From Planctomycetota bacterium (GTDB taxonomy: Bacteria; Planctomycetota; SZUA-567; JAKLDR01): a stretch of 64,000 nucleotides of DNA. A program made the position numbers and the translations under genes. The notes under the pieces are model-generated. The model worked only from the letters and a program-made list of their open reading frames with translations, made no database searches and was not told the DNA's origin. Numbering within the stretch: position 1 is the first letter of the stretch; every line of letters begins with the position of its first letter. The stretch covers positions 62,001 to 126,000 of the forward strand of contig JAKLDR010000004.1 in assembly GCA_022703445.1 (NCBI GenBank), written 5' to 3'. Below are positions 46,279 through 60,197 of this stretch, piece after piece.

Positions 46279-49200
46279 ATGACCGAGCAGTCCGAAACTT
46301 CCGGGGCCGGCCCCCGGCCCGGTCCGGGCCTGCCGCAGTCCCCCGAGAAAGCCCTGCCGGACATAGCCGAGCGCTACCGCCAGCTGGTGGAGCTCTCCCC
46401 GGACGCCATCCTCATCCAGTGCGAAGGGCAGATCGCATTCATCAACCGGGCCGGCATGCGCCTGCTCGGAGCGCGGGAACCGGGCGAGGTTGTCGGGCGG
46501 CCCGTGCTGGAGTTCGTGCACCCCGATCACCGTGCGATCGTCGCCGCGCGCATGGCCGCGGTCCGCACCGCGGGGGTGAACGCCCCCCTCCTCGAGGAGA
46601 AGTACCTCCGCGTCGACGGCGGGGTGGTCGACGTCGAGGTCGTGGCCGCGCCATTCCGATACGAGGGCCGGCCGGCCGCCCAGGTGGTCATCCGCGACAT
46701 CACCGAACGCAAGCGCGCCGAGCAGGCCCTGCGCGAGAGCGAGGACCGCGTCCGCTCGCTGGCCGAGGGCCTGTCCGGAGGCATGGTCTACCAGATCCTG
46801 CGCAGGCCCGACGGCACCAGGCGCTTCACCTACCTGGGAGACACGGTGATCTCCCTCTACGGCTGCACGCCACAGGAGGCCATGGCCGACCCAGAGAAGA
46901 TATACGGCCGGGTCTGCCCCGAGGACCAGGAACGCCTCTTCGAGGAGGAGGAGTCCGCCCACCGGACCATGTCCGTGTTCCGGGCCGAGGCCCGGATCCG
47001 CCCGCCCTGCGGCCCGATACGGTGGTCGTCCTTCGTGTCCAACCCCAGGCTGCTGCCCGACGGCTCCACGCTGTGGAGCGGCATTGAGCTGGACATCACC
47101 GCGCAGAAGCGGGCCGAGGAGGCCCTGCGCGAAAGCGAGGCGCGCTTCCGGAGCATCGTGGACGCCTCGCCCATGGGCATGCACCTCTACGAGCTCGGAG
47201 ACGGCGGGGAACTGATCTTCTCCGGGGCCAATCCCGCCGCGGATCGGATCCTCGGGGTGAACCACTCCAAGTTCCTGGGCCTGCGCATCGAGCAGGCCTT
47301 CCCGGGCCTGATCAGCACCGAGGTCCCGGCCCGATACCGGGAGGTGGCCGCCCGCGGCGGGCAGTGGCGCACCGATCAGATCGACTATGATCGCGCCGGC
47401 ATCCGCGGGGCCTTCGAGGTGGTCGCGTTCCAGACCGGGCCCGGCCGGATGGTCGCGCTCTTCAGCGACGTCACCGAGCGCAAGCGTTCCGAGAAGGCCT
47501 TGCGAGACAGCGAGGCGAGGTTCCGCTCCATCGTCGAGACCAGCCAGGAGTGGATCTGGGCCGTCGACGCCGAGGGCCGGCACACCTACTGCAACCCGGC
47601 CGTCGAGAAGATCCTCGGTTTTCGACCTGATGAGATGGTCGGCCGCGACGCCCAGCCCCTCCTGTACGAGGAGGACCGCGGCACGGCCCGCGAGGCGCTG
47701 GCCAGGAGCCTGGCCGGCCGGACCGGCTGGTCGGGCCTCGTCCTGCGCTGGAGGCACAAGGACGGCTCCATACGCCACCTGGAGAGCACCGCGACCCCCA
47801 TCCTGAACGCGGCGGGGGATATGGCGGGGCTGTGGGGAGCCGATCGCGACATCACCGGGCAAGTACGTGATCAGGAACAGATCCAGCTGCTGAGGAACAG
47901 CATCGACGCCCACCGCGACGGCGCTTACTGGATGGACAGCGACAACCGAATCGTCTACGCCAACGACGCCGCCGCCAAGGCACTCGGCTACCGGCGCGAC
48001 GAACTGCAGGGGATGGCGCTGAGCGCCATCAATCCGCTGGCAACGCCCGAGCGGATGGCCAAGGTGTGGGACAGGCTCCGAAGGAACGGCTTCTTCCTGA
48101 CCGAGTCCATGCATCGCCGCAAGGACGGCAGCGAGTTCCCGGTGGAGGTCATGTCCACTTACGTCCGCCTGGCCGGGAAGGAGTACAACTGCGGCTTTGC
48201 CCGCGACATTGCCGAACGCAAGCGCACCGAGAAGGCCCTGCGGGCCAGCGAGGAACGCTACCGCGCGCTGGTCGAGGCCACCGACACGGGATTTGTGATC
48301 ATCGACTTCCAGGGCCGGGTCCTGGATGCCAACCGCGAGTACGTCCGCCTGACGGGGCGCGGGCAGCTTTCCGAGATTCTGGGCCACAGCGTGGTCGAGT
48401 GGACAGCCGCGCACCACGGGGACAAGAACGCCCAGGCGGTGGAACTGTGCTCCCGGGAAGGCCGGGTGCGCCAACTGGAGGTTGACTACGTCGACGGCCA
48501 GGGGCGCTTCACTCCGGTGGAGATCAACGCCACCGTGGTCGACACCGCCGATGGCCCGCGCATTCTCACGCTGGTCCGCGACATCACCAACCGCAGACGG
48601 ACCGAACAGGCGCTCCAGGAAGCCCACGCCGAGAAGACCAGGCATCTGGCCTTCACCGAGGCGCTGCTCTCCGCCATCCCCACGCCGGTGTTCTTCAAGG
48701 ACGCCGAGGGTCGCTACCTGGGCTGCAACCAGGCCTTCGCCGAGCAGATGGGCGTGACCGCCGAGCAGATCAAAGGCAAGACCGTCGAAGAACTGTGGCC
48801 CGGCGAACACGCCGCCGTCTACCACGCCAAGGACCTGGAACTGATGCGCAACCCCCGGCGGCAGATATACGAGTTCAAAGTCCGGGACAGGCACGGCGAG
48901 GACCGCAACGTCATCTACGCCAAAGACGTCTTCCGGGATGACGCCGGCCGTCCCGCCGGCATCGTCGGCGCCTACGTGGACATCACCGACCGCAGGAGGG
49001 CCGAAGAGGCCCGAGCCCAGAACGAGGCCCGACTGCGCAGCGTGATCGAGTCCACCGCCGACGGCCTGCTGGTTGTCGATCAGGACGGCCGGACCATAGC
49101 CGCCAACACGCGCTTCGCCCAGCTCTGGCGGATCCCCGGCGACCTGCTGGAACGCGGCGACGATGCCGCCCTGCTGGCCCACGTCCTCGACCAGCTGGAG

Positions 49201-50529
49201 GACCCGCAGGCCTTCCTGGCCAAGGTCCGCCGACTGTATACCACCGATGCCGAGGACATGGACGAGATCCGCTTCAAGGACGGCCGGGTCTTCGAGCGTT
49301 ACTCCAGGCCTTTGACCATGGGTGGGGCGGTCGCCGGTCGCGTCTGGTCCTTCCGGGACATAACCGAACGCAGGAGAGCCGAGGAGGCCCTGCGCCTCAG
49401 CCGCCAGCAGCTGCTCACCAACCTGGAGAACACGCCGCACGTCGCCGTCCAGTGGTACGACGAGGCCGGCCGGGTGCTCTACTGGAACCCGGCTTCCGAA
49501 AAGATCTACGGCTTCACCTCCGCCGAGGCCGTGGGCAAGACCCTGGATCAGCTCATCCTGTCTCCCGAGGAGGCCTCCTTCTTCCTGGACACCCTCCGCA
49601 AGATCTCCTCGACCGGGCAACCCTGCGGCCCCTACGAGATGCAGATCCGCAGGCGCGACGGAGGTTCCGGCTGGGTCCTGTCCACCACCTTCGGCATGCC
49701 CATGGCGGAGGGCCGGCCCGGCTTCGTCTGCATGGACGTGGACATCACCGATCGCAAGCGCGTCGAGGCCGAGCGTGAGCGCCTGCTGGTTGACCTGGAG
49801 TCCCGCAACGCCGAACTGGAGCGCTTCACCTACACGGTTTCGCACGACCTGCGCAGCCCGCTGATCACCATCCGCGGCTTCCTGGCCTACCTGGAGCGGG
49901 ATCTGGCCGAGGGCAACGCCGAGCGCCTCAAGTCCGACGTCGGACGCATCACCAGCGCCACTTACAAGATGGAACGACTGCTCCAGGAATTGCTGGAGCT
50001 CTCCCGCGTCGGCCGGGTGGTCAATCCGCCGGAGGACGCGCCCTTCGCCGCGATCGTCGCCGAGGCGGCCGAACTGGTCACCGGCCGCCTGCGGGAGCAC
50101 GGAGTGACCCTGGACGTCACCCCCGACCTGCCGGCGGTCCGCGGCGACCGGCGGCGCCTGGTGGAGGTGCTTCAGAACCTCCTCGACAACGCCGCCAAAT
50201 TCATGGGCGACCAGCCCACCCCGCGCATCCAGATCGGCGTCCGCGGGGAGCCGGCCGGCGGGCAGGCGGTCTTCTTCGTCCGCGACAACGGCATGGGCGT
50301 CGACCCGCAGTACTGCGAGCGGGTCTTCGGCCTTTTCAACAAGCTGGACCCCAAGAGCGAGGGGACCGGCGTGGGGCTGGCCCTGGTGCGGCGCATCGTC
50401 GAGGTGCACGGGGGCCGCATCTGGCTAGAGTCGGAAGGCATCGGCCGGGGCTGCACCTTCTGCCTGCAGCTCCCGCTGGCCGGGGCGAACTGCGATTCCC
50501 AGGAGCGGGGAGGCGACCATGAAGGGTGA
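46279..50529 (+). CDS. Soluble histidine kinase with nine PAS domains
   Basis: 1416 residues with GGAGG about nine bases upstream and no transmembrane segment. Nine successive PAS modules occupy about residues 30-1175; most end in a DIT-x-R/K-RxE-like PAC linker (ITERKRAEQAL, VTERKRSEKAL, IAERKRTEKAL, ITNRRRTEQAL, ITDRRRAEEA and others). The phosphoacceptor His1189 lies in SHDLRSPL. The ATPase has an N box (NLLDNAAK), DNGMG and GTGVGL. The FGLFNKL and LLDNAAKFM pattern is that of phytochrome-type kinases that pair with Rcp1-like receivers, and such a receiver gene overlaps its 3' end by 11 bases. The protein is a cytoplasmic sensor of redox or ligand signals; cofactors cannot be read directly. 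Confidence 0.92.
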   Translation: MTEQSETSGAGPRPGPGLPQSPEKALPDIAERYRQLVELSPDAILIQCEGQIAFINRAGMRLLGAREPGEVVGRPVLEFVHPDHRAIVAARMAAVRTAGVNAPLLEEKYLRVDGGVVDVEVVAAPFRYEGRPAAQVVIRDITERKRAEQALRESEDRVRSLAEGLSGGMVYQILRRPDGTRRFTYLGDTVISLYGCTPQEAMADPEKIYGRVCPEDQERLFEEEESAHRTMSVFRAEARIRPPCGPIRWSSFVSNPRLLPDGSTLWSGIELDITAQKRAEEALRESEARFRSIVDASPMGMHLYELGDGGELIFSGANPAADRILGVNHSKFLGLRIEQAFPGLISTEVPARYREVAARGGQWRTDQIDYDRAGIRGAFEVVAFQTGPGRMVALFSDVTERKRSEKALRDSEARFRSIVETSQEWIWAVDAEGRHTYCNPAVEKILGFRPDEMVGRDAQPLLYEEDRGTAREALARSLAGRTGWSGLVLRWRHKDGSIRHLESTATPILNAAGDMAGLWGADRDITGQVRDQEQIQLLRNSIDAHRDGAYWMDSDNRIVYANDAAAKALGYRRDELQGMALSAINPLATPERMAKVWDRLRRNGFFLTESMHRRKDGSEFPVEVMSTYVRLAGKEYNCGFARDIAERKRTEKALRASEERYRALVEATDTGFVIIDFQGRVLDANREYVRLTGRGQLSEILGHSVVEWTAAHHGDKNAQAVELCSREGRVRQLEVDYVDGQGRFTPVEINATVVDTADGPRILTLVRDITNRRRTEQALQEAHAEKTRHLAFTEALLSAIPTPVFFKDAEGRYLGCNQAFAEQMGVTAEQIKGKTVEELWPGEHAAVYHAKDLELMRNPRRQIYEFKVRDRHGEDRNVIYAKDVFRDDAGRPAGIVGAYVDITDRRRAEEARAQNEARLRSVIESTADGLLVVDQDGRTIAANTRFAQLWRIPGDLLERGDDAALLAHVLDQLEDPQAFLAKVRRLYTTDAEDMDEIRFKDGRVFERYSRPLTMGGAVAGRVWSFRDITERRRAEEALRLSRQQLLTNLENTPHVAVQWYDEAGRVLYWNPASEKIYGFTSAEAVGKTLDQLILSPEEASFFLDTLRKISSTGQPCGPYEMQIRRRDGGSGWVLSTTFGMPMAEGRPGFVCMDVDITDRKRVEAERERLLVDLESRNAELERFTYTVSHDLRSPLITIRGFLAYLERDLAEGNAERLKSDVGRITSATYKMERLLQELLELSRVGRVVNPPEDAPFAAIVAEAAELVTGRLREHGVTLDVTPDLPAVRGDRRRLVEVLQNLLDNAAKFMGDQPTPRIQIGVRGEPAGGQAVFFVRDNGMGVDPQYCERVFGLFNKLDPKSEGTGVGLALVRRIVEVHGGRIWLESEGIGRGCTFCLQLPLAGANCDSQERGGDHEG

Positions 50530-50962
50530 ACCCATCAGGATTCTGCTTGTCGAGGACAACGCCGATCACGCCGAGCTGGTCCGGCGCTCCCTCGCCGATC
50601 ACCGGGTGGCCAACCGGATCACCCACCTCAGCGACGGGGCCGCGGCCCTGGATTACCTGCACAACCGCGGGGACTACGCCGATGCCGAGAAGAACCCCCG
50701 CCCCCACATCGTCCTGCTCGACCTGCGGCTGCCCAAGATCGACGGCCTGGAGGTGCTCCGCGTGCTGAAGCAGGACCAGCGGCTGGCAGCCATCCCCGTG
50801 ATCATCCTGACCACCTCCGAGGCCGACGCCGACATCGCCCAGGCCTACGGCAACCACGCCAACAGCTACCTGGTCAAGCCGGTCGGCTTCGAGAAGCTCA
50901 AGTCCATGATGCAGGATTTCGGGTTCTACTGGCTGGGCTGGAACACCCACCCCGAGCTGTAG
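50519..50962 (+). CDS. Rcp1-type single-domain response regulator
   Basis: 147 residues that overlap the kinase gene, with GGGGAGG about seven bases before the ATG. Receiver-only: the acidic pair is Glu12-Asp13, the phosphoacceptor Asp68 is in LLDLRLP, the switch Thr is in ILTTSEAD, and the conserved Lys is in YLVKP. The insertion around residues 45-62 (LHNRGDYADAEKNPRPH) and the C-terminal FYWLGWN tail mark the Rcp1/phytochrome-partner subfamily. It is the likely phosphate acceptor of the nine-PAS kinase and may relay phosphate to the downstream regulator. Confidence 0.92.
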   Translation: MKGEPIRILLVEDNADHAELVRRSLADHRVANRITHLSDGAAALDYLHNRGDYADAEKNPRPHIVLLDLRLPKIDGLEVLRVLKQDQRLAAIPVIILTTSEADADIAQAYGNHANSYLVKPVGFEKLKSMMQDFGFYWLGWNTHPEL

Positions 50963-51004
50963 ACCGCGGCGGCACCCCGGGAACGGCAGCACTGGAGACC
51001 ACCC

Positions 51005-53905
<2,901 letters not shown>

Positions 53906-54159
53906 GCGGATAGTAATTATCCATCTGTCACAAGACGCGTTATTACGAGCGTTAGGGCGATGGTGCGCAATTATTAGCCAACTGTGATCTCCAATGGAAA
54001 CACAGCATTCACGGACGTAGACTTCTCTATAGACAGGTAACACCCTGTCATACAACATGATACGCTATGCTGTCGGCATTCTACCACCGCCTCACGCCAT
54101 TTGGCCCAGGGGTTGCTCTTCCAGCTGCCCACAACGGCAAAGCGGAAAGGGAGGATCCC
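53906..54159. other. 254-base A+T-richer leader region with small palindrome
   Basis: This gap is less G+C-rich than its surroundings. It contains GACAGG (54032-54037) and CCTGTC (54044-54049) as an inverted repeat and a GGATA/TATCC pair just after the activator stop. TAGACA at 54031-54036 on the minus strand's complement side could be a -35, but no convincing -10 or sigma54 site (TGGCAC-N5-TTGC) was found. Confidence 0.35.
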
Positions 54160-54621
54160 GTGAGTCTCGGTACCGAGCGCGAAGCCAGCCGCCTGGCCAA
54201 TCCCTTCTCCGCCCTGCGCGGAACCAAGGTCCGGCGGGTTGTTGTTCTGAGCCAGGACTCCGTCATTCGCGATTTGAGCGAAGTTATCCTCAAGGGCCAC
54301 GGTTTCATCGTGGAACAGGCCGAGGCGCTGCTGGACGTGCGGACCCTGGTGGCCACCAGGCCAGTGTTCGCCTGCCTGGTGGACTGCCGCCGGCTCACGG
54401 CCAGGGGCACCAAGCTGCTCCGGCAGGTGGCGGAGCTCGATCTGATCCACAGCGTGGCGCTGGTCGACGCCGGCGATTCCGAGGGGGAGGTCGCCGCCTA
54501 CGCGGCCGGTGCCGTCGCGGTCGTCGCGTGTCCTTTCGAGAACGTGGCGCTGATCGCGGCGGTCTCCGGCCTTCCGGAGTTCCGTCAGCGCCAGGAAATA
54601 TTGAACGGAGGCAGGCAGTGA
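54160..54621 (+). CDS. Degenerate receiver-domain protein
   Basis: 153 residues from the GTG at 54160, with GGGAGG five bases upstream. A receiver-like alternation of strands and helices is visible. The putative phosphoacceptor Asp75 (ACLVDCRRL) remains and one Asp of the acidic pair (Asp33). The conserved Lys is replaced by Cys124 in VVACPFE, and the switch Ser/Thr is lost (VALVDAGD). It may therefore signal without normal phosphorylation. It overlaps the CheD-like gene by GTGA, giving a three-gene unit up to 55573. Confidence 0.65.
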   Translation: MSLGTEREASRLANPFSALRGTKVRRVVVLSQDSVIRDLSEVILKGHGFIVEQAEALLDVRTLVATRPVFACLVDCRRLTARGTKLLRQVAELDLIHSVALVDAGDSEGEVAAYAAGAVAVVACPFENVALIAAVSGLPEFRQRQEILNGGRQ

Positions 54622-55118
54622 GCGGCAGGATCCCCAGTTCGGCCGGCAGCCGCAGGCTGCCGCGCCAGTCTCCTGAGCCCGGACGCGACCGCCGGATGAC
54701 CATTCACCTTGTGTCGGTGGGCGAGACCGTCGTCGCCGACTCCAGCGCCGTGCTGGTCATGCGCACGGCCGGCTCGGCGGTCATGGTGCTCCACGATCCG
54801 GTCCGGCAGGTGGCGGCGGCGGCGCATTTCGCCCTGCCGCATAGCCGCGCCGAGCAGGCATCCCAGTCGAGATCCGTGCCGGCCGACCTGTTCGCCAGGC
54901 TGCTGGCCCGGGGCAGCCGGCCACAGGATCTCGAGCTTTACGCCGTCGGCCCGGGGCTCCCGCTCGAGCTCCCGGGCGCTCAGCAGAAGGGGGCCCCGGC
55001 AGGGCCGCCCGCGAGGGTGGCCCTGGGCTGCCGGGTCGATTCGATACGCGCGCCGCGCCGCGTGGAGTTCAGCGTGGACATGGGCAGAATGGTGGTTGAG
55101 GGAGGCTGCAGGCCATGA
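54618..55118 (+). CDS. CheD-like protein lacking the catalytic cysteine
   Basis: 166 residues from the GTG at 54618, with GGAGG six bases upstream and a GTGA overlap with the receiver gene. Residues 27-75 follow the CheD pattern VSVGE...AGSAVMVLHDP...AAHFALP. CheD deamidates glutamines on chemoreceptors with a Thr-Cys-His triad. Here the Cys position is Ala54 (GSA in place of GSC), the Thr position is Met48, and only His70 is kept. The C-terminal DSIRAPRRVEFSVDMGRMVV segment fits the family's last strands. It is predicted to be catalytically dead and to serve as a binding partner, perhaps of the flanking receivers. No chemoreceptor or che gene is nearby. Confidence 0.6.
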   Translation: MSGRIPSSAGSRRLPRQSPEPGRDRRMTIHLVSVGETVVADSSAVLVMRTAGSAVMVLHDPVRQVAAAAHFALPHSRAEQASQSRSVPADLFARLLARGSRPQDLELYAVGPGLPLELPGAQQKGAPAGPPARVALGCRVDSIRAPRRVEFSVDMGRMVVEGGCRP

Positions 55119-55573
55119 GCACTATTAAACCGTCCCAGCCGTCTTCCGGGGCCCCGCGCAAGCGTCGGGTTCTGCTCGTGGACGACTGCGAGGAACTACT
55201 CAGCCTCATGACCTGCGTCCTGCTGGAGCACGGGTTCGAAGTCGGCGCCGCCATGGACGCCAAGCAGGGCTACAAGCTGGCGCTGGACGGCGGCTTCGAC
55301 CTGCTGGTCACCGACCTGGTCATGCCGGACGTCAAGGGCAACTCGCTGATCAGCATGCTGCGGGCGGCCGGGTTCGGCGCTCCGATCATCGTGGTCTCCG
55401 GCTACGTCGGATGCCTCGAGGCCAGCCGCCTCAAGGAGCTCGGCGTCGCCGGGGTGATGACCAAGCCCTTCAAGCTGGCCGGCTTCCTGAACTGCGTCTA
55501 CAAGGCCATGGGCCTGCAGATGGAGGAGGAGGAGCTCCACGTTGCCGGCGAAGAGCGCGCGGGGGCCTGGTAG
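55115..55573 (+). CDS. Single-domain response regulator (intact)
   Basis: 152 residues, overlapping the CheD-like gene by ATGA. A 17-residue disordered N-terminus leads into a complete receiver: Asp23-Asp24, phosphoacceptor Asp67 in VTDLVMPD, a Ser switch in VVSGYVG and Lys in MTKPFK. The last 20 residues are acidic. It has no output domain. Co-translation with a degenerate receiver and an inactive CheD-like protein suggests a small signalling complex in which this is the only normally phosphorylatable member. Confidence 0.85.
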   Translation: MSTIKPSQPSSGAPRKRRVLLVDDCEELLSLMTCVLLEHGFEVGAAMDAKQGYKLALDGGFDLLVTDLVMPDVKGNSLISMLRAAGFGAPIIVVSGYVGCLEASRLKELGVAGVMTKPFKLAGFLNCVYKAMGLQMEEEELHVAGEERAGAW

Positions 55574-55684
55574 GCCGGACCCCGTCCGGACATTATCCAC
55601 ATTATCCGAAAGAACCGACGCCCGGCCGCCGAATAACATATATGATGGGGCGGATGCCATGGGCCCCGAACCGGGGGGATTCCT

Positions 55685-56581
55685 GTGCGCATAGTTTCGT
55701 GGGGACCGCGCCGGGGAGAGCGCGCCGGCCTGCTCTCGGACGGATTCGTCGTGGACCTCAACCGGGCCGACGGAGCCCTGCCGTCCGACCCGCGGGACCT
55801 GTTCCGCGGCTGGGAGCGGCTGGAGCCGAAGCTCCGGAAGCTGTCCGCCGCGCCGGCCGCGTCGCTCGCCTCCTCCTGCCGGGAACCGCTCGGCTCGGTC
55901 CGCCTGGGCGCCCCCTCGCCGGATCCGGGCGAGATCGTATGCCTGGCCGGCAACTACGAGGAGCACATCAAGGAGGGGGAGTGCGTGCGGGAGATGAAGC
56001 GCACCGCCCACCCCAAGCTCTTCAGCAAGGCCGGAGTCACCGCCTCCGGGCCGGCCGACGACATCGTCTACCCCCGGGGCGTCGAGAAGCTCGACTACGA
56101 GGTTGAGATCGCCGTGATCATCGGGCGCGCCGCGCGCTCCGTGCCGGCCGCGAAGGCTTCCGGAGTCATCGCCGGGTACTGCGTCCTGAACGACGTCTCG
56201 GCGCGCTGCGCCCAGTTCGGGGACGGGCAGTTCTTCCGGGGCAAGTCCTTCGAGACCTTCGCGCCCATGGGCCCGGCGCTGGTGACGCCGGACGAGGCCG
56301 GCAACGTCGCCGACCTGCGCCTGCGCTCCTGGGTCAACGGCCAGGTCCGCCAGGACTCGCGCACGAGCCGCATGACTTTCCCGATCCCGGAGATAGTGGA
56401 GTTCGTCTCCGGCGTCTTCACCCTGCGCCCAGGCGACGTCATCGCCACCGGCACCCCCGCCGGGGTGGGGGTCTTCATGAATCCGCCGGGCCTGCTGCAG
56501 GCCGGCGATCTCGTGGAGATGGAAGTGGATGGACTGGGCCGGCTGGCCAACCGGGTGGCCGCCCCGAGGGACGCATCATGA
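55685..56581 (+). CDS. Fumarylacetoacetate hydrolase (FAH) family protein
   Basis: 298 residues from the GTG at 55685 (GGGGGA five bases upstream). The FAH fold is shown by CLAGNYEEH, the metal ligands Glu-x-Glu in DYEVEIAVIIG, VLNDVSAR, and KSFETFAPMGP, with VIATGTPAGVG near the C-terminus. Members hydrolyse or decarboxylate acylpyruvates and 2-oxo acids, for example acylpyruvase or 2-oxohept-3-ene-dioate hydratase. The gene overlaps the amidase gene by ATGA. With lpxK and the amidase following, the context does not point to one pathway. A TATGAT hexamer at about 55640 may be its -10. Confidence 0.88.
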   Translation: MRIVSWGPRRGERAGLLSDGFVVDLNRADGALPSDPRDLFRGWERLEPKLRKLSAAPAASLASSCREPLGSVRLGAPSPDPGEIVCLAGNYEEHIKEGECVREMKRTAHPKLFSKAGVTASGPADDIVYPRGVEKLDYEVEIAVIIGRAARSVPAAKASGVIAGYCVLNDVSARCAQFGDGQFFRGKSFETFAPMGPALVTPDEAGNVADLRLRSWVNGQVRQDSRTSRMTFPIPEIVEFVSGVFTLRPGDVIATGTPAGVGVFMNPPGLLQAGDLVEMEVDGLGRLANRVAAPRDAS

Positions 56582-57453
56582 TGAACACCCGATCCGGGAA
56601 CCAGGCCAGCGGGCTGATCCTCGGCCCGGTCGCCCCGCGCCGGGTGCGCCGCGCGGCGCCGCCGGCCCCGGCAGCCGTGCCCGGCCCCTTCGAGGAGGCC
56701 CTGGTGTCCTGGGGACTCAGGCTGCTCTTCGTGCTCCTGGCCGCCGGAGTCGCCGGCTGCAAGGCCTACAGCGAGGTGCCCTCCGCCGACGTGCAGCCGC
56801 CGGTCTGCCCGCCGACGCCGGCCGGCGCGGAGGCCTGCTGGGAGCCGCCCGCTCCGCTCGGACCCTGGCGCTACATCATCGTCCATCACAGCGCCACGCC
56901 GGGCGGCTCGGCCGCGCTCTTCGAGAAATACCACCGCAACGTCCGGCACTTCGAGAACGGCATGGGTTACCACTTCGTTATCGGCAACGGCGTGGACGTG
57001 ACCGACGGCCTCGTCGAGGTCGGTGACCGCTGGGTCCGCCAGATCCAGGGGGCGCACGTCGGCGGCGAACTCAACCGCGAGTGCATCGGCATCTGCCTGG
57101 TGGGGGATTTCTCCCAGGGCCGCCCCACCGCCAGGCAGGTGGCCTCGCTCGACCGGCTGCTGAAGTTCCTGCTGGCCCGCTGCCGGATACCGCCCTCCCG
57201 CGTCATAGGCCACTGCGAGGCCCGCCCGGGACACACGGTCTGCCCCGGCCAGCACTTCTCCATGGACGCGCTCCGCAAAACCCTCTCCGGCGGATCCTCG
57301 GTCTGCCAGATACCGGTTGAGCCGGCCGGGGGCCAGCCCCCGCCGGCCGAAGCAGCCCCCAGTGCCGCTCCACCCCCGGCGGCCACCGGCGGCTCGGCCG
57401 CCTCCGCCCCGCAGAACTTCCGGGTCTACGGGTCGGTGCGCAGCCTGCGCTGA
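56578..57453 (+). CDS. N-acetylmuramoyl-L-alanine amidase-type zinc protein (Amidase_2/PGRP)
   Basis: 291 residues in an ATGA overlap with the FAH gene. The zinc site is His103 in IVHHSAT, a second His in GHCEARPGH and Cys in TVCPG. Adjacent GAHVGG and NRECIGICLVGDF are family motifs. A membrane or lipoprotein segment (about 42-61, ending LAAGVAGC) precedes the domain. An alternative GTG at 56704, five bases after GAGGAGG, would make that segment an N-terminal lipoprotein signal; the upstream codons are G/C-rich at third positions, so both starts are possible. The C-terminus is Pro/Ala-rich. It probably trims or recycles peptidoglycan at the envelope. Confidence 0.85.
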   Translation: MMNTRSGNQASGLILGPVAPRRVRRAAPPAPAAVPGPFEEALVSWGLRLLFVLLAAGVAGCKAYSEVPSADVQPPVCPPTPAGAEACWEPPAPLGPWRYIIVHHSATPGGSAALFEKYHRNVRHFENGMGYHFVIGNGVDVTDGLVEVGDRWVRQIQGAHVGGELNRECIGICLVGDFSQGRPTARQVASLDRLLKFLLARCRIPPSRVIGHCEARPGHTVCPGQHFSMDALRKTLSGGSSVCQIPVEPAGGQPPPAEAAPSAAPPPAATGGSAASAPQNFRVYGSVRSLR

Positions 57454-57542
57454 CCGCGCGTTCCCCAAGATGGTGGAAGTTTCCGGCAGCGCGGATATGA
57501 TTTCCGCGGTCGGCCGTCATTGAGCGGCCCCGGAGACGCCAC

Positions 57543-58637
57543 GTGGCCCGCGAGTACGCGCTCGAAGACCTGGAGCTCTACCTCCTCTCGGTGATGGAGG
57601 ACCGCCTGCACGGGGTCATGCCATCGCTGCTGCGCGGGGTCGCCGCCGCGGCCAGTTGGCCGTTCGCGGGGGCCGCCGCCCTGCGGCGCCAACTCTACCT
57701 CGGGGGAAAGCTGCGGCGGCGCCGCGCCCCGCTGCCGGTGATCTCGGTCGGCAACCTGGTGGTCGGCGGGGCCGGCAAGACCCCGTTCTCGTCCTATCTG
57801 CTCCGCGGGCTGTCCCGGCAGGGCCGGCAGGTGGCGGTCATCGCCCGGGGCTACCGCTCGGGCAAGTCCGACGCGGTCAACGACGAGCTGGTCATGCTCG
57901 GCCGGCAGGTCCCGGACGCACTGACCCTGGCCACTCCCAACCGTCTGACCGGCTGCCGCAAGGCCGCCGAGCTCGGGGCCGAGGTGGCGGTGCTCGACGA
58001 CGGCTTCCAGCACATCCCGCTGATGCGCGACCTGGACATCCTGCTTCTGGACGCCACCCGCCCCTTCGGCAACGGCCGGCTGTTGCCCCGGGGAACGCTG
58101 CGCGAGCCGCCGGAGTGCGCCCGGCGCGCGGACATAGCCGTGCTCACCAGGGTCGACCTGGCCTCGCGCGGCCAGGTCGGCGAGCTGCGCACCTGGCTGG
58201 GCCGGCTCCGCCGCAACATGCCCGTGGCCGAATGCTGCTTCCGCCCGGCGACGCTCAAGCCGGTGGTGGCCGGGAGTGCTCCACCGCTTGACCCGGAGGC
58301 CCTCTCCGGCCGCCGCATCGGGGCCTTCGCCGGGCTGGCCGACCCGCGCAGCTTCGGGCGGCTGCTCCGCGCCCTGGGCGCCGCCGTGGTCTACTCCCGG
58401 CGCTTCCGCGACCATCACCGCTACACCGGACGGGATCTGGCCGAGGTCGCCGCCGAGGCCCGCTGGGCCGGCGCCGAGCTGCTGGTCACCACCGAGAAGG
58501 ACGCGGTCAAACTCTCCCGGCTGACCGCCCCGGAAGCCCCCCTCTACTACCTGCCCATCGAGGTGGAGATGCGCGAGGGCGAGGACCTGCTCTGGGCCGA
58601 GGTCGGCCGGGCGCTGGCCAACTTCAAGAAGCCTTAG
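57543..58637 (+). CDS. lpxK: Tetraacyldisaccharide 4'-kinase
   Basis: 364 residues from the GTG at 57543, with GGAG seven bases upstream. LpxK phosphorylates the 4' position of the tetraacyldisaccharide lipid A precursor at the inner membrane. A P-loop, GNLVVGGAGKTP, is at 70-81; DDGFQH supplies the catalytic Asp; RGTLREP and a C-terminal TTEKDAVKL are family motifs. Length is normal. Its presence shows a lipopolysaccharide-type outer membrane. It stands apart from other lpx genes, which is common for lpxK. Confidence 0.93.
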   Translation: MAREYALEDLELYLLSVMEDRLHGVMPSLLRGVAAAASWPFAGAAALRRQLYLGGKLRRRRAPLPVISVGNLVVGGAGKTPFSSYLLRGLSRQGRQVAVIARGYRSGKSDAVNDELVMLGRQVPDALTLATPNRLTGCRKAAELGAEVAVLDDGFQHIPLMRDLDILLLDATRPFGNGRLLPRGTLREPPECARRADIAVLTRVDLASRGQVGELRTWLGRLRRNMPVAECCFRPATLKPVVAGSAPPLDPEALSGRRIGAFAGLADPRSFGRLLRALGAAVVYSRRFRDHHRYTGRDLAEVAAEARWAGAELLVTTEKDAVKLSRLTAPEAPLYYLPIEVEMREGEDLLWAEVGRALANFKKP

Positions 58638-58643
58638 AGCTTT

Positions 58644-58775
58644 TCACCACCAAGACACCGAGACACAGGAGACGGCAGGGGATTTCCATCCGCGGACGAG
58701 ACCGCTCCCGATTGGAGAACGGCGCGCGCCGCGAACTGTGATCAACGTTGTTACTGGTGTCCTGGCGGTTGGGCG
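58644..58775. repeat. Inverted pair of 8-mer tandem arrays
   Basis: The left arm, 58644-58673, has TCACCACC, AAGACACC and GAGACACA. The right arm, 58744-58775, has TACTGGTG, TCCTGGCG and GTTGGGCG. The arms are imperfect complements around 70 bases and fill the gap between two convergent genes. Confidence 0.55.
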
Positions 58776-58776
58776 C

Positions 58777-59088
58777 TCAGTCCACCGCGGCCAGGGCGCG
58801 GGTCTCGACGGCCGATTCTTCGGCCTCGGCCATCTCCAGCGCCCGGCGGGACGCCCGGCAGGCGGCGCCGTGGAGCCAGCCGCAGATGGTCCGCCGGCCG
58901 GCCAGCCCACGCGCACCGCGGGCCAGCATCAGGAAGACGGCCCGGGTGGCGGTCTCGGCCAGGCGCCGGTCGCCGGTCATTCGCAGGCAGGCGGAGTAGA
59001 CCATCGGCGCGTGACGCTCGACCAGCGCGCCCAGCGCCTGCGCCGAGCCGCGCGCCGCGTAGCCGTCAAGAAGCTCGCCGTCGGTCAT
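58777..59088 (-). CDS. ECF sigma-factor region-2-only protein
   Basis: 103 residues with GGAGG five bases before the ATG at 59088. It resembles the first domain of ECF sigma factors: DGELLDGYAARGSAQALGALVERHAPMVYSACLRMTGD, followed by AETATRAVFLMLARGA, the -10-recognition and core-binding helices. The protein ends after an acidic tail with no region 4. The frame closes with a proper stop, and no broken region 4 sequence is visible downstream, where the repeat array begins. It may be a truncated sigma factor or a stand-alone core-RNA-polymerase binder. Confidence 0.65.
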   Translation of the reverse strand: MTDGELLDGYAARGSAQALGALVERHAPMVYSACLRMTGDRRLAETATRAVFLMLARGARGLAGRRTICGWLHGAACRASRRALEMAEAEESAVETRALAAVD

Positions 59089-59164
59089 CGCCCCCTCCGT
59101 GCTGTAGGGGGAATATACACCGCGGACGCTCCAAGGTTCGCCGACGGCAGGTGCGCACAAGAAC

Positions 59165-59189
59165 GGGGGCCGCGCGCTGCGCGGCCCCC
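59165..59189 (-). terminator. Strong hairpin terminator of the dehydrogenase gene
   Basis: An 11-bp perfect G+C stem (59165-59175 with 59179-59189) and a three-base loop lie 21 bases beyond the stop codon. The minus-strand sequence continues GTTCTTGT, a short U-rich tail. Confidence 0.75.
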
Positions 59190-59210
59190 GGCGGACATGG
59201 CGGAATCGGG

Positions 59211-60197
59211 CTACTTCTTCAGCTTCTCGTAGACCTTGGGATTCACGCAGCTCTTGGGCCGCTCGCCCTTGAGCACGGCCGCGGCGGCCTTGGCGGTCTC
59301 GTCCTGGAGCTCCTGGATGGACTCCTCGGAGTACCAGCCGGCGTGGTCGGTGAGGACCACGTTGGGGATCTTGCGGAGCGGCGAGTCCGCCGGCAACGGC
59401 TCCTTCTCGTAGACGTCCAGACCCGCCGAGGCCGGGCGGCCCTTCTTGAGGGCCTCGGCCAGGGCCGCCTCGTCGATGACCGGCCCGCGGGCGGTGTTGA
59501 CCAGCACGGCGGTGGGTTTCATCAGGCCCAGCCGGCGCGCGTCGATCATGTGGAACGTCTCCTTGTTGCTGGGCGCGTGGACGGAGACGTAGTCGCTCTC
59601 CTTGAGCAGGGTGTCGAGGTCGACGAGCGTCACCCCGGCGGCCTTGGCGGCCTCGGGCTTGAGGTAGGGGTCGTGGACCAGCACCTTGAAGCGCCAGCCG
59701 CCGATCTTCTCGTGCAGCCGGCGGGGGATCGAGCCATAGCCGACCAGCCCGAAGGTCTTGCCGGTCATGCGGAAGACGGGGTCCTTGGGGCCGATGTCCC
59801 ACTCGCCGGCGCGGACCCGCTTGTCGTGGTCCACCAGCTTGCGGGCGCAGGCCATGATCAGAGCCAGGGCCTGGTCGGAGACCTCCTCGACGCAGTAGCC
59901 CAGGACGTTGGCCACGACCACACCGCGGTCGGTGGCGGCCTGGAGGTCGACGTTGTCCACGCCGATGCCATAGCGGACGATGACCTTGAGGTCGGTCAGC
60001 GACTCGATCAGCGCCTGGTCGATGGGCGCCTGGCGCACCAGCAGGCCGTGCGCGCCCTTGCAGCCCTCGAAGAGCTGGCAGGGGTCCTTCCAGACCACCG
60101 GCCCAGCCAGTTCGGCGCCGGCTTCGGCCAGGATGCGCTTCTCTCCCGCGTAGCTCTTGTAACCGGGGTCGGTGACGACGACTTTGAACTTGGCCAT
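59211..60197 (-). CDS. D-isomer-specific 2-hydroxyacid dehydrogenase
   Basis: 328 residues. NAD(P)-dependent oxidoreductase of the phosphoglycerate dehydrogenase/glyoxylate reductase family. The catalytic trio is visible: Arg in NTARGPVID, Glu in DVYEKEP and His in TDHAGWYSEES. The nucleotide-binding loop reads GYGSIP where GxGxxG is usual, so its third glycine is Pro. The substrate is not evident; the C-terminal ACT domain of true SerA is absent. No good ribosome site precedes the ATG, and a 7-mer repeat array fills the gap to the receiver gene upstream, from which it may be transcribed. Confidence 0.88.
   Translation of the reverse strand: MAKFKVVVTDPGYKSYAGEKRILAEAGAELAGPVVWKDPCQLFEGCKGAHGLLVRQAPIDQALIESLTDLKVIVRYGIGVDNVDLQAATDRGVVVANVLGYCVEEVSDQALALIMACARKLVDHDKRVRAGEWDIGPKDPVFRMTGKTFGLVGYGSIPRRLHEKIGGWRFKVLVHDPYLKPEAAKAAGVTLVDLDTLLKESDYVSVHAPSNKETFHMIDARRLGLMKPTAVLVNTARGPVIDEAALAEALKKGRPASAGLDVYEKEPLPADSPLRKIPNVVLTDHAGWYSEESIQELQDETAKAAAAVLKGERPKSCVNPKVYEKLKK

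Follow-up and report, generated by a model that had tools for sequence, protein, structure and literature searches.

A metagenome-assembled genome of the Planctomycetota carries, on the + strand, a three-gene operon for a degenerate receiver, a CheD homolog lacking the catalytic cysteine and an intact receiver, with overlaps between successive genes. The operon is real and unusual, and the best reading is that it specifies a binding-only module. The window (the whole stretch of DNA analyzed, 64 kb) includes the three genes at the following positions.

54160-54621, + strand: CDS1, degenerate receiver of 153 amino acids, GTG start (identified by Pfam and translation)
54618-55118, + strand: CDS2, CheD homolog of 166 amino acids, GTG start (identified by NCBIfam, Thermotoga maritima CheD, TmCheD, and our own HMM)
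55115-55573, + strand: CDS3, intact single-domain receiver of 152 amino acids (identified by Pfam and translation)

CDS1 and CDS2 share 4 nt (GTGA), and so do CDS2 and CDS3 (ATGA). These overlaps imply coupled translation and bear out a preliminary description of the region, in which a CheD-like gene was said to be translationally coupled to two receivers. CDS1 has an alternative ATG start at position 54067, but the Shine-Dalgarno-like sequence GGGAGG precedes the GTG at 54160 and none precedes the ATG. The third codon positions are rich in GC, as in genuine local genes (GC3 of 0.83, 0.86 and 0.92 for CDS1, CDS2 and CDS3). Codon scores were 0.27 for CDS1 and 0.11 for CDS2, compared to about 0.5 bits per codon in most neighbors.

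Profile comparisons indicate that CDS2 is a genuine CheD relative. A profile search had been named as the analysis that could place it outside this family; instead, two NCBIfam CheD models matched its N-terminal core (E 1.4e-5 and 1.9e-5), and our own HMM, based on 18 Planctomycetota CheD sequences, matched with E 7.6e-9, the best of 2000 shuffles reaching E 4.6. The sole PDB sequence match was TmCheD (2f9z_C; phmmer, E 1.3e-3). The Pfam CheD model (PF03975) did not match CDS2 at E≤1, and in the Cys-less relatives described below the matches to this model start past the active-site region. An AlphaFold model of CDS2 fed with an alignment had a pLDDT of 76, with values above 90 in the core (blocks 31-70) and below 50 at residues 119-140. 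In a Foldseek search the best match of this model was again 2f9z_C (E 2e-7, probability 1.00), a partly circular result because the input alignment contained CheD sequences; the next matches were YfiH and NTAN1, which belong to the same cysteine-hydrolase superfamily. The model obtained from the single sequence was poor (pLDDT 43). CDS2 shares with CheD deamidases (PF03975/NF041119; T. maritima 2F9Z and B. subtilis) the N-terminal core motifs, the His at the catalytic position, the DP and LP motifs, the length and perhaps the fold.

The active site is where CDS2 departs from these deamidases. The catalytic triad of TmCheD consists of Cys27, Thr21 and His44 (PMC7022378). In the alignment of both proteins Cys27 corresponds to Ala54, Thr21 to Met48 and His44 to the conserved His70, exactly the residues given in the preliminary description, and one residue is deleted after the Cys position. 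A sequencing error at codon 54 was ruled out, since GCG is three substitutions away from TGC. The C-terminal half of CDS2 has changed too, its GGA, N and DVGG motifs being lost or eroded. Because CDS2 lacks the catalytic Cys and Thr, it is not expected to deamidate receptor glutamines by the known mechanism.

The two receivers differ in their state of conservation. The match of CDS1 to Pfam Response_reg (E 1.6e-5) scored 25.4 bits, below the cut-off of 30.2. Asp75 is kept, but of the receiver residue set (DD, D, T/S, K) the switch Thr/Ser and the Lys are missing, with ALVDAG and VACPFE found in the respective regions, as had been noticed before. CDS3, previously described as intact, does carry the full set (DDC, TD, VVS and TKP) and matches Response_reg with E 2.2e-17. 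Both proteins resemble single-domain and atypical receivers in that they are stand-alone, one intact and one degenerate. What sets them apart is that they are translationally coupled around a CheD homolog.

A cluster of signaling genes lies directly upstream of the trio, and the intergenic region includes a promoter-like element. These features are as follows.

46279-50529, + strand: multi-PAS histidine kinase of 1416 amino acids (Pfam: six or seven PAS, HisKA, HATPase_c)
50519-50962, + strand: stand-alone receiver (Pfam Response_reg, E 1.1e-20), overlapping the kinase gene by 11 nt
51005-53905, + strand: sigma-54-dependent activator of 966 amino acids, with receiver, PAS, AAA+ and Fis-type HTH regions
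53864-53879 (inside the activator gene) and 53954-53969, + strand: 16-nt direct repeat, 14/16 positions identical
54102-54117, + strand: sigma-54-type -24/-12 promoter-like element TGGCCCAGGGGTTGCT (GG-N10-GC, pattern match)

The activator matched Pfam Response_reg, PAS, Sigma54_activat (E 1.6e-65) and HTH_8, and its translation includes GAFTGA. In the 254-bp gap between this gene and CDS1, TGGCCCAGGGGTTGCT precedes the CDS1 start by 43 nt. The window has no other match to TGGCN7TTGCW, against 0.68 expected from shuffles (0.14 for the stricter TGGCMC form). About 0.0013 chance matches are expected on the + strand of the gap, a value to be read knowing that the motif was noticed before being counted. 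Across the genome the strict -24/-12 pattern was not clearly enriched (20 matches, versus 15 in the reversed control), which makes the location of the match, rather than the motif by itself, the argument for a promoter. No sigma-70-like site was found for the trio. The genome has a sigma-54 gene, so that the sigma factor, an activator and the GG-N10-GC element of a candidate sigma-54-dependent operon are all present. Since the sole -24/-12 match of the window is located just upstream of the trio and behind the kinase, receiver and activator genes, the trio is probably a target operon of the adjacent activator. The imperfect 16-nt repeat lies between the 3′ end of the activator gene and the promoter-like element. 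When the region was resampled 60 times with a Markov model, 14 identical positions were reached twice; the second copy is a candidate activator site, albeit a suggestive one only. By its position, the multi-PAS kinase is the likely source of the signal input for the trio.

The preliminary description also stated that there are no che genes nearby. Inspection of the open reading frames listed for 50500-60000 revealed none, but the surroundings are far from devoid of signaling genes, given the PAS histidine kinase, the receiver and the sigma-54 activator directly upstream. The canonical CheD of this genome is encoded on another contig (C282), beside CheR, a CheY-like receiver and an MCP-like sequence. 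The precedent originally invoked for the trio, the binding of Bacillus CheD to CheC and CheY-P, found no support. The CheC model (PF04509) had no match in the genome, an absence that is uncertain because the assembly is 81% complete; the same model matches 15 of the 29 genomes of the class. With the CheC partner of the B. subtilis and T. maritima CheC-CheD systems missing from the present assembly, a CheC-based reading of the trio is unlikely. In B. subtilis, the binding role of CheD outweighs its deamidase activity, its Met101 and Phe102 contact CheC, and CheY-P strengthens the binding between CheC and CheD, which is not the same as CheD binding CheY-P alone (PMC3513319). The CDS2 residues at these contact positions are Pro-Leu. 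Met-Phe is likewise absent from the closest intact relatives, so this is a trait of the lineage and no sign of decay. The proposal of a binding-only system draws on the loss of the catalytic Cys and Thr and on the predominance of binding over deamidation in B. subtilis, and a partnership of CheD with receivers is supported by proteins in which the two are fused.

Two such fusions were found in the same class (L095:1036-1968 and L083:2001-2936). They are proteins of about 311 amino acids with a CheD region (E 6.8e-23 and 1.6e-20) and a CheB-like receiver (Response_reg, E ~1e-21). Frames of comparable length, which may include more fusions, occur in several other genomes of this class. The L095 and L083 fusions argue independently for joint action of CheD and a receiver, and in this functional joining they resemble the trio. 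They differ from CDS2 in being one polypeptide, in having the intact GSC Cys and in that their receiver resembles that of CheB.

CDS2 is not unique in lacking the Cys, as 15 further distinct Planctomycetota proteins share this property. Among 76 distinct CheD frames in which the site is covered, a set enriched for weak matches whose counts do not represent frequencies, 60 keep the Cys (57 GSC, 3 GNC) and 15 have ASG, SSG, SYG, SFG, GYS or GNS; CDS2 is the sole GSA. The contig names obtained for the close Cys-less CheDs are those of Planctomycetota, and the set includes L123:3421-3951, L122:2436-2963, L124-L129 (with L128:2900-3418), L073:1107-1592, L074:1913-2401, L075:1901-2389 and L082:1983-2522. 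Neighbors were checked for a subset, most of which is in che operons. The L123 protein has CheA on one side and CheR-CheB on the other, with an intact CheD further on; that of L122 is flanked by CheW and CheR. The genes flanking that of the L073 protein encode an MCP and CheR, and next in line is an intact CheD. Those of L126, L128 and L129 adjoin, by eye, CheR- and CheB-like frames, and a che-operon context was not clearly visible for L082 and L075. A canonical and a Cys-less CheD are found within one operon in two genomes (G004 and G063). These observations indicate that nucleophile-less CheD proteins are retained in che operons of the phylum. CDS2 shares with the ASG, SYG, GYS and GNS types the homology to CheD and the missing nucleophile, but the proteins checked are mostly encoded in MCP/CheW/CheA-CheR-CheB operons and keep the C-terminal motifs, neither of which is true of CDS2. 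In the best tree CDS2 has a very long branch (5.7), its nearest sequences are L031, L033 and the CheD of the same genome (L001), and it branches outside the Cys-less clade, although its joining the clade was not rejected (AU p 0.27). It is possible, then, that CDS2 lost its Cys separately from the other Cys-less CheDs. No description of Cys-less CheDs was found in the open-access literature, the search not extending to subscription papers.

A search for the same trio in other genomes, suggested in the preliminary description, found none in 99 relatives, in 29 genomes of the class or in a wider collection of genome contigs. CDS2 itself gave a single match in the 99 relatives (in G035), dropped because it reads as a glycosyltransferase-like protein, only noise in the class genomes, and 285 pattern matches in the contig collection, none of them confirmed by tblastn. 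A plasmid match was discarded as an Azospirillum CheD with intact GSC. Using the CDS3 receiver to look for a second copy of the trio recovered only receivers with 33-36% identity in other contexts. As the trio occurs in no other genome searched, conservation cannot prove selection.

The analysis established the sequences of the trio, their order and overlaps, their homology, the loss of active residues and the presence of a promoter-like element; on this basis the following mechanism can be proposed. The sigma-54 activator next door would switch on transcription of the trio. CDS2 would keep the CheD fold without deamidation by the Cys-His-Thr mechanism and would most likely bind the intact receiver, CDS3, in a phosphorylation-dependent manner, with CDS1 acting as a partner or competitor that does not respond to phosphorylation. 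Through the module, the local phosphorylation state, set by the multi-PAS kinase and the receivers, would be passed on to a protein target; this target may be the kinase or else one of the chemoreceptors that belong to the separate che system of the genome. We give about an even chance to this reading of the trio as an activator target operon that encodes a small binding module with a non-deamidating CDS2. Counted against it were the lack of the trio in the other genomes searched, the absence of a clear genome-wide enrichment of the -24/-12 pattern, the long branch, the loss of C-terminal motifs and the fact that the fusions bear the Cys. A variant, in which the sigma-54-induced module is independent of chemoreceptors and the dead CheD serves as an adaptor controlled by a phosphorylated receiver outside chemotaxis, appears rather improbable.

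The same features must be weighed against other explanations. CDS1 and CDS2 could be former signaling genes that are losing their function in a decaying or relaxed operon and are intact by chance. Active residues are gone from both, their codon scores are low, and the branch length of CDS2 and the lack of the trio in relatives fit as well. However, none of the three frames is interrupted, their starts are coupled and GC3 is high, CDS3 is fully intact and the CheD core is modeled confidently (31-70 above 90 pLDDT), though from a CheD alignment, and we consider decay unlikely. Competition within the ordinary chemotaxis system of the genome is similarly unlikely. CDS2 could compete with the canonical CheD of C282 for receptor sites and adjust adaptation while the sigma-54 pathway is active, as the presence of that CheD next to CheR and an MCP-like sequence and the paired CheDs of G004 and G063 would suggest, but the trio lies well away from che genes and the GGA-type motif of CDS2 is altered. 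That CDS2 is still an enzyme, with another nucleophile or as a Cys-independent hydrolase, is very unlikely. His70 is kept and two cysteines, Cys138 and Cys164, are left in the C-terminal half, yet neither aligns with a known catalytic position, and residues 119-140 are the stretch modeled below 50 pLDDT.

CheD is usually regarded as an enzyme. In B. subtilis a single protein combines binding and deamidation. A naturally nucleophile-less CheD that is coupled to receivers and encoded apart from che genes, together with the Cys-less CheDs that recur in che operons of Planctomycetota, would permit separate study of the binding function. A stand-alone intact CheD, with no che neighbors annotated, was also observed on an Azospirillum megaplasmid (L146:4953-5600).
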